Origin: Verrucomicrobiia bacterium
Lineage (GTDB): Bacteria; Verrucomicrobiota; Verrucomicrobiia; Limisphaerales; JAEYXS01
Length of the DNA stretch: 64,000 nt
Assembly: GCA_036405135.1 (NCBI GenBank)
Contig: DASWYF010000011.1
Coordinates: forward strand, 1 to 64,000
Reading direction: 5' to 3'
Positions within the stretch are counted from its first letter, which is position 1; each line of letters begins with the position of its first letter. A program made the translations under genes and the position numbers. Positions 13,134 to 62,593 of the stretch are shown here, in pieces. Below the pieces are notes generated by a model. It saw only the letters and a program-made list of their open reading frames with translations, was not told the DNA's origin and ran no database searches.

Positions 13134-13275
13134 GCTTAGACCCTAGCCCATCGTTCGGCTCCGAGCAATCTCCGCAAGACGCGAAGTGTTCTATACCCCC
13201 CGATATCGCATTGTATTAGGAGCCTTTGCCCCTCTTGGACCTAAACTGTGTCCGCTGCATTACACACCGGCAAGA

Positions 13276-13302
13276 GTTTAAGCGGCTTAAATGCCGCGCT
13301 CC
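13276..13302 (-). repeat. GGAGCGC hairpin element (family C)
   Basis: Read on the minus strand: GGAGCGC, then GCGGCAT..AAGCCGC as a hairpin, then TTAAAC. It is continuous with a CTCTTGCCGGTGTGTA block (13258-13275) that recurs near 25873-25890 and 34758-34776. A member of a dispersed family with eight copies in the window. Confidence 0.7.
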
Positions 13303-17579: not shown

Positions 17580-17608
17580 GGAGTGCGGCTTTTAAGCCGC
17601 TTCAATTA
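17580..17608 (+). repeat. GGAGCGC hairpin element (family C), left arm of an inverted pair
   Basis: GGAGTGCGGCTTTTAAGCCG followed by CTTCAAT. An inverted copy lies at 17684-17712, so the two bound a segment of about 130 bp between the pectate lyase and transporter genes. Such a paired arrangement resembles REP/BIME units. Confidence 0.7.
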
Positions 17609-17683
17609 CCAACAGCCAATAGGATGTGAACACCATGAGGTATTTGCCTTCTAAAAGCGTTTTGAAAATCTTTCGATTCGCGA

Positions 17684-17712
17684 ATATTGAAGCGGCTTAA
17701 AAGCCGCGCTCC
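17684..17712 (-). repeat. GGAGCGC hairpin element (family C), right arm
   Basis: On the minus strand: GGAGCGCGGCTTTTAAGCCG followed by CTTCAATA. Inverted with respect to 17580-17608, with about 75 bp of unique sequence between them. Confidence 0.7.
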
Positions 17713-30764: not shown

Positions 30765-30807
30765 GGAGCGCGACTCTCCGAGTCGCAGCAATACCCATAA
30801 GCAAAAG
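30765..30807 (+). repeat. GGAGCGC hairpin element (family C), GACTC stem
   Basis: GGAGCGCGACTC, loop TCC, GAGTCGCAGCAA, then CATAAGCAAAA. It lies immediately after the lipid kinase stop codon. The same flanks with a different stem (GGGTT/AACCC) occur at 62442-62485, and the same stem with loop GCC occurs at 51121-51151. Confidence 0.75.
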
Positions 30808-30918
30808 CGGATACCAAGCACTCTGTCTTTGGACCGCGGCTGTACTCTGCGCCAGCAGAATCAGCCGCAGCAGATGAAATACATTGTGGTTATCAATTAC
30901 GAAGAAAACCGCTCTCAA

Positions 30919-46357: not shown

Positions 46358-47065
46358 ATGGATATGAAACTCCCGATGCTCGCACTCGTCTTGGTCACCC
46401 TTGTCGGTTGCCAAAGCTATCCGATGGGCCTCTCAAAAGTTGAATGGGAAGCACTGCCGCCGGAACAACAGGCAGAATACCGACGTCAGCAAAGTTTGAT
46501 CGATGAAGAGCGGCGACGCGAACAGGCGATCATCAATGAGCAGCGGCGTAAAGAACAGGCAGCACTCGCAGAGAAGCAACGCTTGGAAGCCGCCGAACGC
46601 TCCCGTGTAGAAGAGATGCGGCTGGCAGCTCTTTATGCACACGCACGCTATGGCGATATCGTCACCGTGACAATCGAAGGGGGCTTGGTGAATTTCAGCA
46701 AGCATCGCGCGTATGAGCCGGTGCGTTTTGAGATTCTGCGCGGTCAGCGGAAGGATATCGAATTCGTCCAACTTGGCAGTCCCAGCACCAAGATTCTAGT
46801 GCCAGTGCGCTTAAGCGAAGACGGGCAGACTTTTTATTTCGATGAAGGTGCGCGTGATCGCCTTGTGTTCATCAATGCAGATAACGTGTGGCAGATCGGC
46901 AAGCGTTACGAAGGTTTGGCCATTCACGATACTTCAAGCCGGTCTCTCGCCAGTGCTATCAATATACATTTGCAGTATAAGAGTTTCGGCAACCGTCCGC
47001 AGCCACAGCCCACTACGCCACCACCCCAGCGTCCGGTGCCAGGCAAGCCGCTGCAGAGGCAATAG
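46358..47065 (+). CDS. Predicted lipoprotein with coiled coil
   Basis: A 235-residue protein. It has a lipoprotein signal (KLPMLALVLVTLVGC, lipobox LVGC), then LSKVEWEALPPEQQAEYRRQ and a highly charged helix of about 50 residues (EERRREQ, INEQRRKEQ, LAEKQRLEAAERSR) that should form a coiled coil. A beta-rich domain of about 120 residues and a Pro/Gln-rich tail follow. The WEALPPEQQAEYR phrase recurs in unstudied bacterial lipoproteins. It is divergent from the propeller gene, 160 bases apart. Membrane-anchored; function unknown. Confidence 0.72.
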   Translation: MDMKLPMLALVLVTLVGCQSYPMGLSKVEWEALPPEQQAEYRRQQSLIDEERRREQAIINEQRRKEQAALAEKQRLEAAERSRVEEMRLAALYAHARYGDIVTVTIEGGLVNFSKHRAYEPVRFEILRGQRKDIEFVQLGSPSTKILVPVRLSEDGQTFYFDEGARDRLVFINADNVWQIGKRYEGLAIHDTSSRSLASAINIHLQYKSFGNRPQPQPTTPPPQRPVPGKPLQRQ

Positions 47066-47090
47066 GAGCGCGGCATTCATGCCCGCCTAA
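47065..47090 (+). repeat. GGAGCGC hairpin element (family C), left arm of an inverted pair
   Basis: GGAGCGCGGCATTCATGCCC followed by GCC. It begins within the stop region of the lipoprotein gene. An inverted copy lies at 47175-47214. Confidence 0.7.
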
Positions 47091-47174
47091 ATATTCAGAT
47101 ATCATCAGGCATAGGATGCTCTGCATGTTGACATCCATGTATAAGTTCTTCCCTGTGGTAAACATCCTACCATC

Positions 47175-47214
47175 TTTGCTTATGAGAATTTAAGCGGCAT
47201 GAATGCCGTGCTCC
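47175..47214 (-). repeat. GGAGCGC hairpin element (family C), right arm
   Basis: On the minus strand: GGAGCACGGCATTCATGCCG, then CTTAAATTCT, then CATAAGCAAA. The CATAAGCAAA tail is the same as in the copies at 30765 and 62442. Together with 47065-47090 it bounds a segment of about 150 bp upstream of hrpB. Confidence 0.72.
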
Positions 47215-51087: not shown

Positions 51088-51120
51088 GCACTCAATCAAA
51101 TTAGCACTTCAGACTGATTG

Positions 51121-51151
51121 AGCATTGCTGCGACTCGGCGAGTCGCGCTCC
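51121..51151 (-). repeat. GGAGCGC hairpin element (family C), GACTC stem
   Basis: On the minus strand: GGAGCGCGACTC, loop GCC, GAGTCGCAGCAATGCT. It differs from the 30765 copy mainly in the loop. It lies between the converging aminotransferase and galactokinase-like genes. Confidence 0.75.
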
Positions 51152-57418: not shown

Positions 57419-57440
57419 TATACCGCCTTGCTCTTCCTTC

Positions 57441-57477
57441 TCCCCTCGGAGGGGACAAGGATTGAGGATGAGGGGTG
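57441..57477 (+). repeat. Dispersed repeat B, copy 2
   Basis: TCCCCTCGGAGGGGACAAGG then ATTGAGGATGAGGGGTG, matching 142-178 with only a few differences and in the same orientation. Confidence 0.7.
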
Positions 57478-58970: not shown

Positions 58971-59009
58971 TTTCATCCCTTCGTCATTCGGATTTAGTCA
59001 TTCGTCATT
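58971..59009 (+). repeat. Dispersed repeat F, third copy
   Basis: CATCCCTTCGTCATTCGGAT then TTAGTCATTCGTCATTTC. It lies in the spacer before the histidine kinase stop codon and extends into the last codons of that gene. Confidence 0.65.
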
Positions 59010-60260
59010 TCCCCGCCCTCCCGCCCCCAACAACAACGGCTCCGGCTCATGCAACGGCAACCACACCCGGAACATTGTCCCTTCACCCAGGTGACTCTCC
59101 AATTCGATCCGCCCGCCATGCTCCCGCACGATCCGCTGCACAATCATCAATCCCAAACCCGTCCCCTTCTCCTTAGTCGTGAAGAACGGTTCAAAAATCT
59201 TGTTCACCTTGTCGGATGGGATGCCCATGCCGTTATCCCCCACACTCACCCATACACCATCTTTCGTGCGACCCGTCTGTAAGATGAGTGTGCCTCCACG
59301 CGTCATCGCCTGCATCGCATTCTTGATCAGATTCACCAGCACCTGCTTGATCTGCGCGGCATCGATCGGTGCTTGCGGCAACGGCTTCAACAATTCCTGC
59401 TCCACTTGGATACCGCGATTCTCCAGTTCCGGCCCCAGCAGGTCCAGTGTTGCCGTCACCACTTCATTCAGTGAATCCGGCTTGATCTTCGGCTCCGTTG
59501 GCCGGATCGCCTGCAGGAATTGAGTGATGATATAATCCAGCCGCGCGATCTCACCCTTCGCCACACCCACGAATGTCTCCAACCGTTCCACATTATCGCT
59601 CAGATCAAATGTGTCATCCTTCGCCGCGCGCCTGCGCAGCAACCCCTTCGGCTTTGTCTGCTTCGCGTGACCATCCTTCATCTTACGCAACTCCCGCTCG
59701 ATGAGCTGCATGTGGATATGCAGTGCGTTCAGCGGATTCCCGATCTCATGCGCCACGCTTGCCGCCAGTAACGTCAACGCCTGCACCCTCTCGCTCTCGA
59801 TCGCTTCAAACGTCTGCTGCCGCGCCTCCGTGGCATCATGCAGGATCAGCGCCATGCCTGAACTGCCCGTCTTTTCCCCATCCAGCGGCGCCACATACAT
59901 GCGCACAAAACGCGCATGCGGATACCGCACCTCGAACTCATGCCGCATCACCTTCGGCCCGCCTGCATTATCCCCTTTGGCGATTAACGACCAATCCACC
60001 TGCGGCAAAATCCGGCTGATCGGCTGCCCTTCCGTCGTATCCGGCAACAAGCCGAGCAAACGCGTCGCTGCATCATTGAAATACAGAATCTGTCCGCTCT
60101 CATCCACCACCAGCACACCGTCCTCGATCGCATTGAACAACGTCTCCAAGAAACTTTGTTCCCGCGCCAATCGTTCAACGACCGTCTGCAAGCCCTGCGC
60201 GTCCAGTCGCCCGAGACGCCCGAGGACCTTGTCAAGAAAGTTGGAATTAGAACCTGCCAT
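58998..60260 (-). CDS. Soluble NtrB-type sensor histidine kinase
   Basis: A 420-residue kinase without membrane helices. It has an N-terminal coiled coil, a PAS domain (about 40-150: FNAIEDGVLVVDESGQILYF), a HisKA domain with His171 in SVAHEIGNPLNALHIHMQL, and an HATPase domain (LVNLIKNAMQAM, VGDNGMGIP, FFTTKEKGTGLGLMIV). A basic insert of about 25 residues (KQTKPKGLLRRRAA) lies between the two HisKA helices. It would phosphorylate the NtrC-type regulator encoded downstream. It starts 12 bases after corA, so the three form one operon. Confidence 0.93.
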   Translation of the reverse strand: MAGSNSNFLDKVLGRLGRLDAQGLQTVVERLAREQSFLETLFNAIEDGVLVVDESGQILYFNDAATRLLGLLPDTTEGQPISRILPQVDWSLIAKGDNAGGPKVMRHEFEVRYPHARFVRMYVAPLDGEKTGSSGMALILHDATEARQQTFEAIESERVQALTLLAASVAHEIGNPLNALHIHMQLIERELRKMKDGHAKQTKPKGLLRRRAAKDDTFDLSDNVERLETFVGVAKGEIARLDYIITQFLQAIRPTEPKIKPDSLNEVVTATLDLLGPELENRGIQVEQELLKPLPQAPIDAAQIKQVLVNLIKNAMQAMTRGGTLILQTGRTKDGVWVSVGDNGMGIPSDKVNKIFEPFFTTKEKGTGLGLMIVQRIVREHGGRIELESHLGEGTMFRVWLPLHEPEPLLLGAGGRGNDE

Positions 60261-61294: not shown

Positions 61295-61468
61295 TTACAC
61301 CGGAGAGTGTGCCATTTTGTCCCACAGGATACTCCTTAAAACAGCACACGCAAGCCTGTAACCTTTTGTCCCAGTTACATTGCGGTGACGCGGTTCTCTC
61401 CTCCTCGTTCTCGTCCTCGTCGTCGTCCTCGATTCTTCTCCCTGCACTTTCTCCTGCGTCTCTTCCAT
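61295..61468 (-). CDS. Possible 57-residue leader ORF upstream of corA
   Basis: An open frame from ATG (61468) to TAA, 23 bases before corA. The ATG has an ideal AGGAGG six bases upstream (in ATAGGAGGTTAGT), much stronger than most genes here. The peptide is rich in Arg and Thr in the middle (SRTTTRTRTRRREPRHR), encoded by the trinucleotide tract at 61402-61436, and ends LRSILWDKMAHSPV. It is too short to identify. It could be a regulatory leader, as Salmonella corA has (corL), or a chance frame in repeat DNA. The rest of the 61272-61621 spacer shows nothing clear. Confidence 0.4.
   Translation of the reverse strand: MEETQEKVQGEESRTTTRTRTRRREPRHRNVTGTKGYRLACAVLRSILWDKMAHSPV
61402..61436. repeat. 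Imperfect trinucleotide tract (CTCGTC type)
   Basis: CTCCTCGTTCTCGTCCTCGT then CGTCGTCCTCGATTC: overlapping CTC/GTC units that would read as repeated Arg-Thr on the minus strand. Low-complexity sequence of this kind can change length by slippage. Confidence 0.7.
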
Positions 61469-62441: not shown

Positions 62442-62485
62442 GGAGCGCGGGTTATCCTCAACCCGCAGCAACTCTCATAAGCAAA
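62442..62485 (+). repeat. GGAGCGC hairpin element (family C), GGGTT stem
   Basis: GGAGCGCGGGTT, loop ATCCTC, AACCCGCAGCAA, then CATAAGCAAA. Same flanks and tail as the copy at 30765, but with a completely different and still complementary stem. It starts 10 bases after the stop of the small secreted protein gene. Confidence 0.75.
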
Positions 62486-62593
62486 TCCAATCCCTATTCG
62501 TTTGCCCCCATTCGGTTGACCACCTCAACCATTCTTCATTTCCCAAATTCGATGTTCAGAGTTCGATGTTCGATGTTCGATGTTTACTCAACC

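Follow-up and report, generated by a model that had tools for sequence, protein, structure and literature searches.

What are the short, tagged hairpins exemplified by the sequence at position 30765, and what, if anything, moves them? The sequence-only reading of the window (the whole stretch of 64 000 nt analysed here) had listed eight such elements, and all eight are present. Each consists of GGAG(C/T), a hairpin with a foot of GC or AC, and a tail, either AGCAA (type A: 30765, 51151 and 62442) or TTCAA/TTAAA/CTAAA (type B: 13302, 17580, 17712, 47065 and 47214). The coordinates first given for the plus-strand copies were right, while those for the minus-strand copies marked the tail end and not the GGAG end; the GGAG ends lie at 13302(-), 17580(+), 17712(-), 30765(+), 47065(+), 47214(-), 51151(-) and 62442(+). 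The elements are arranged as follows.

13264..13302, minus strand: single type-B element, GGAGCGCGGCATTTAAGCCGCTTAAA, with one stem mismatch, about 67 nt behind a predicted stop codon.
17580..17712: two type-B elements (17580 plus, 17712 minus) forming a head-out doublet of 133 bp, stem GCGGCT/AGCCGC.
30765..30808, plus strand: type-A element, stem GCGACTC/GAGTCGC, loop TCC, tail AGCAATACCCATAAGCAAA, 60.7 bits.
47065..47214: head-out doublet of type-B elements (47065 plus, 47214 minus), 150 bp.
51109..51151, minus strand: type-A element, stem GCGACTC/GAGTCGC, loop GCC.
62442..62486, plus strand: type-A element with stem GCGGGTT/AACCCGC and loop ATCCTC; its tail is AGCAACTCTCATAAGCAAA, and a predicted stop codon precedes the element by 10 nt.

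The GGAG at 30765 begins 2 nt past the TAA that ends the upstream ORF. At 47065 the element supplies, with its first G, the last base of the upstream ORF's TAG stop codon, and the element at 51151 does the same for a minus-strand ORF ending in TAG. Both pairs are inverted, as described earlier, and have their heads outward. The claim that the stems vary but stay paired is true of most copies in the window, the exceptions being 13302, where the stem is mismatched at its top, and 47065, with an extra C in the 3' arm. Three copies (30765, 47214 and 62442) do share the tail CATAAGCAAA. The occurrence of this tail in some type-A and some type-B copies suggests that the two types may be one family with exchanged stems.

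The plain word GGAGCGC is at chance level in the window (14 occurrences, 15.5 expected). GGAG[CT][AG]C followed by a 5-bp Watson–Crick stem starting 5 nt in occurs six times; 200 dinucleotide shuffles give 0.45 occurrences on average and never more than 2. An Rfam search of the window gave no match. Complementarity between tag and loop (GGAG and CTCC in type A) was considered as a shared feature and dropped, as the type-B loops (TTTA) lack it. Other, low-complexity dispersed short repeats, such as GTTCGATGTTCGATG and CTCGTCGTCGTCCTCG, lie at 57432–57477, 58973–59010, 61399–61440 and 62549–62586; repeats of this kind have dozens of matching places in the same-genus genomes.

Copies collected from 1.26 Mb of the genome (further stretches plus the window) comprise 19 of type A and seven intact ones of type B, together with copies of a third GGAG subtype, type C (GGAGTGCGGAGG...CTTT). 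The tag is GGAG in all 26 aligned type-A and type-B copies. Compensatory change in the stem, proposed from the window copies, is borne out by the larger set: every one of the 95 cells of the 5-bp stem is paired across the 19 type-A copies (100%), both sides are changed in 18 cells, where shuffles give 5.2, and two-sided changes occur at three of the five stem pairs. When the type-A structure is slid along the sequence as a control, pairing drops to 19–61%. A covariance-model search of the whole genome and of related genomes had been proposed, with many hits as the expected outcome. The model, built from copies in this genome, has at least 94 matches in the 5.8 Mb genome (E <= 0.01), at least 35 and at least four in two same-genus genomes, and at least 44 in one genome of another family; these counts are lower bounds, with up to 150 candidates scored per genome.

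Among the 90 matches listed for this genome, 38 form 19 close pairs, compared with 0.56 pairs expected by chance, and the heads point outward in all 19. Doublet lengths fall into two classes, 110–118 and 139–165 bp (a 4 nt flank on each side included). Inverted doublets are over-represented, as in REPINs, and the likely unit is the head-out doublet, i.e. REPIN-like. Comparison with genomes of the same genus covered the last 18 kb of the window. The doublet at 47065–47214 is missing at the matching junction in both of these genomes (G001 and G002), and the hairpin at 51151 is missing at the matching place in one of them (G001). For the doublet, either gain here or loss there may account for the difference, gain appearing simpler because two relatives lack it. 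Such empty sites are as expected of mobile DNA, though they could in principle be losses.

Strictly, a REP begins with the 5' tetranucleotide GT[AG]G (PMC3686654), and the window elements carry GGAG. They do have a palindrome beside the tag in which pairing is kept, and many copies, almost all intergenic. By the strict definition they are not REPs, yet they appear to work like REPs. The earlier assignment to a REP-like family is thus upheld by the number of copies, by the covariation and by the presence, which it had predicted, of RAYT genes elsewhere in the genome; it departs from the definition in the tag. Published REP tags are GT[AG]G, with degenerate second or third positions in some families (GYAG, GYRG, GTRG, GTMG), or CGTC, and atypical tags such as CnGA (class 3) are known for some RAYT relatives. 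GGAG was not found as a tag in the accessible REP/RAYT literature; subscription papers were mostly outside its scope, and an earlier description is possible. In other respects the family resembles the GTAG REPs and REPtrons (PMC2817692; PMC3733652), which also combine a 5' tetranucleotide with a short hairpin of variable, paired stem, and have many intergenic copies, inverted doublets and related RAYTs flanked by hairpins; it differs in the tag (GGAG, or GGAC in some relatives) and in that no RAYT for types A and B was detected in this genome. The REPINs of Pseudomonas fluorescens are likewise inverted doublets with a spacer that probably act as the unit, and their lengths are similar in magnitude (REPs 71 and 110 bp apart, as against doublets of 110–165 bp here), but they have another tag and belong to another bacterial phylum (PMC3116915).

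The window holds no transposase for these elements, as noted previously, and no RAYT was found in it. The genome as a whole has five RAYT-type matches, one with a stop codon; a sixth match is an IS200-type gene. The RAYT on contig C20 (186 aa, motifs NHYH and YVHQNP) scores 94.6 bits with the REP_Tyr_transpos model (cut-off 80), has an HUH nuclease core with Y...NP and is homologous to E. coli TnpA-REP (PDB 4er8). An inverted type-C GGAG hairpin lies on either side of it, and type-C GGAG hairpins also lie on both sides of a same-genus homologue that is 80% identical to it. The RAYT on contig C10 (C10:96100) is accompanied by GTAG-tagged hairpins, GGTAGGGCTGGCTGTCCTCAGCC. The RAYT at C37:1552 is broken, contains a stop codon and has GTGG-tagged hairpins. 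No RAYT flanked by type-A or type-B hairpins was detected in this genome, and the two types therefore look orphaned here. They look orphaned too in G002, a 76%-complete genome in which one GTAG-type RAYT was found. In other members of the order, RAYTs are flanked by AGCA-tailed hairpins (L106, L172 and L174) or TTCAA-tailed hairpins (L181); a RAYT is thus flanked by type C in this genome, and by types A and B in relatives only. When a relative's RAYT with AGCA-tailed hairpins was used to search this genome, the best match, 41% identical, was a copy embedded in priA, described below.

Very probably, as far as the sequences can tell, the elements are non-autonomous, REP-like mobile DNA whose GGAG tag is read by a RAYT-type HUH nuclease. 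The main competing interpretation, which we regard as improbable, is that the hairpins are functional 3' RNA structures (terminators, protection of mRNA ends or tuning of translation termination) kept by selection behind genes and not mobile DNA. It draws on position relative to genes, assessed for 34 elements in the 1.26 Mb, where genes were called crudely. Thirty of the 34 lie outside predicted genes, compared with 15% of random positions, and 13 of the 34 have their centres within 25 nt of a predicted stop codon, compared with 2.3%; many heads begin 0–3 nt past the stop. In all 14 near-stop copies the head faces the stop, although at most seven of these, all singles (7/7), are informative, since the orientation in doublets follows from geometry, as it would in singles if these are decayed doublets. 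Against an RNA role, copies are missing at matching places in same-genus genomes, a terminator needs neither a fixed tag and tail nor strict head-out doublets, no U-run follows the stems, and tagged hairpins of these kinds are found on the flanks of RAYT genes. The near-stop location is explained by survival at harmless sites, and REP families elsewhere, too, lie for the most part downstream of genes (PMC3733652). Some copies may later have been co-opted as 3' RNA structure.

The genome also encodes six IS200-type TnpA proteins, and movement by one of these instead of a RAYT would accommodate the lack of a visible RAYT for types A and B. One such locus (L013) has a type-A element, more than 1 kb away, but none of the six has GGAG hairpins close on both sides, and in relatives it is RAYTs that such hairpins flank; we consider this still less probable than an RNA role. 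The resemblance of the doublets to short elements with inverted ends might suggest that the elements are the termini of an ordinary (DDE) MITE or insertion sequence. This is extremely unlikely, as every terminus forms a hairpin of its own with a directional tag, single elements are common, the two aligned sites have no evident target-site duplication and hairpins of these kinds flank genes for HUH-type RAYTs.

If the elements are REP-like mobile DNA, a RAYT-type HUH nuclease would read the GGAG guide tag beside a folded, single-stranded hairpin, and two units with their heads outward would form the 110–165 bp doublet (REPIN) that moves; singles would mostly be decayed doublets. The stem would be free to drift as long as pairing is kept, with an unchanging tag and tail, because the enzyme, judging from work on those of E. 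coli, Stenotrophomonas and Marinomonas, is expected to read the tag, the shape and the loop. As no cognate RAYT is visible for types A and B, most copies in this genome are probably relics of past spread, and the survivors would be those just behind genes, where insertion harms least.

The tag itself appears to vary across the order, in which a large share of RAYT/REP systems would use GGAG or GGAC in place of GTAG. RAYT genes occur in 161 of 196 genomes of the order. Repeated hairpins were listed around about 100 RAYT loci, and the tag was read by a mixture of rule and visual inspection. The 93 RAYTs of a tree comprise 45 of GGAG/GGAC type, 36 of GTAG type and 12 with another tag or none read; the GTAG and GGAG/GGAC types form separate clades, with four changes between them. 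In addition, hairpins tagged GGAGT(T/C) were seen at two loci (L086 and L087), and at L161 a RAYT lies amid many GGTGTC-tagged hairpins, possibly a third tag.

A column predicting the tag was sought over the whole alignment, none being picked beforehand. The best column has His in 34 of the 36 GTAG-type proteins and in none of the 45 GGA-type proteins, and is right for 97.5%; the two exceptions (L099 and L145) are both GTAG-type. Runner-up columns reach 82% by a single-residue rule and 96% by majority residue. By alignment to 4er8 the best column corresponds to His101 of E. coli TnpA-REP, a protein with which the Verrucomicrobia RAYTs align in the HUH motif, the catalytic Tyr of Y..xNP and the guide-contacting stretch; unlike the E. 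coli enzyme, the GGA-type proteins have Arg, Thr, Ser or Cys at this position. H101 has been discussed with W94, Q95, E100 and R104 among the residues meeting the GTAG guide, and Arg is occasionally found at position 101 (PMC6006769). The E. coli enzyme needs GTAG, no base of which can be changed (PMC8266576). In Pseudomonas and Stenotrophomonas, related RAYTs are likewise flanked by REPs with differing stems and a conserved tag; there GT[AG]G is constant (PMC3686654), whereas here the tag differs between RAYT clades of one order. The association between residue 101 and the tag is a strong lead, not proof, that this residue may set the specificity, and with only four tag changes on the tree no significance is attainable by independent contrasts.

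Two natural tag codes thus coexist in one bacterial order, and the difference between them tracks one residue of the guide-contact stretch, so that the recognition code is directly testable by point mutation. This bears on how RAYTs read their tag and on how RAYT/REP pairs change partners. A large set of REP families will escape catalogues based on GT[AG]G, for example the RNAMotif search in PMC6006769.

Some RAYTs of the order reside within essential genes. In four genomes from other families of the order (L088, L094, L102 and L159) a RAYT lies in frame inside alaS, with no stop codons, at one of two sites, near positions 254 and 375 of the TIGR00344 model. One genome assembled as a single contig (G098) has an interrupted alaS and no second alaS. 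Four genomes, also from other families (L092, L093, L095 and L180), have a RAYT in frame inside thrS, again with no stop codons. The alaS and thrS RAYTs form one clade, and most of their hairpins start with GGGGAGC; in each of the six cases checked, both the HUH and the Tyr motif are intact. Residence of this kind is intein-like. It is an evenly poised proposal that, in Verrucomicrobia subdivision 3, a large REP/RAYT branch reads GGAG instead of GTAG, mainly through Arg, Thr or Ser in place of His at position 101, and that part of this branch secures its transposase, intein-like, in frame inside essential genes (alaS and thrS). In PMC6006769 unusually long proteins were set aside as fusions or annotation errors, which may explain why RAYTs in essential genes went unreported there.

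The genome that holds the window has a comparable case in priA (L111 352–3282, near 139493 of contig C13), where a RAYT lies in frame within an open frame of at least 977 aa. The domain order in this one frame is PriA_3primeBD, RAYT, DEAD, Helicase_C, and the HUH and Tyr motifs of the embedded RAYT are present. No PriA start domain other than that of the interrupted gene was found in the genome; in both same-genus genomes priA is uninterrupted. The hairpins around this RAYT can be read as GGACT-tagged on one strand, but the other strand carries a more constant GTG, and the protein was left unlabelled for tag in the tree. The hairpin that flanks it, GGACTGCCGGCTGGAATCCGGCAGCAC, is also a further dispersed family in this genome, with copies at L028 2959, L044 10203, L050 8430, L056 5795, L063 19132 and L066 7591, among others.
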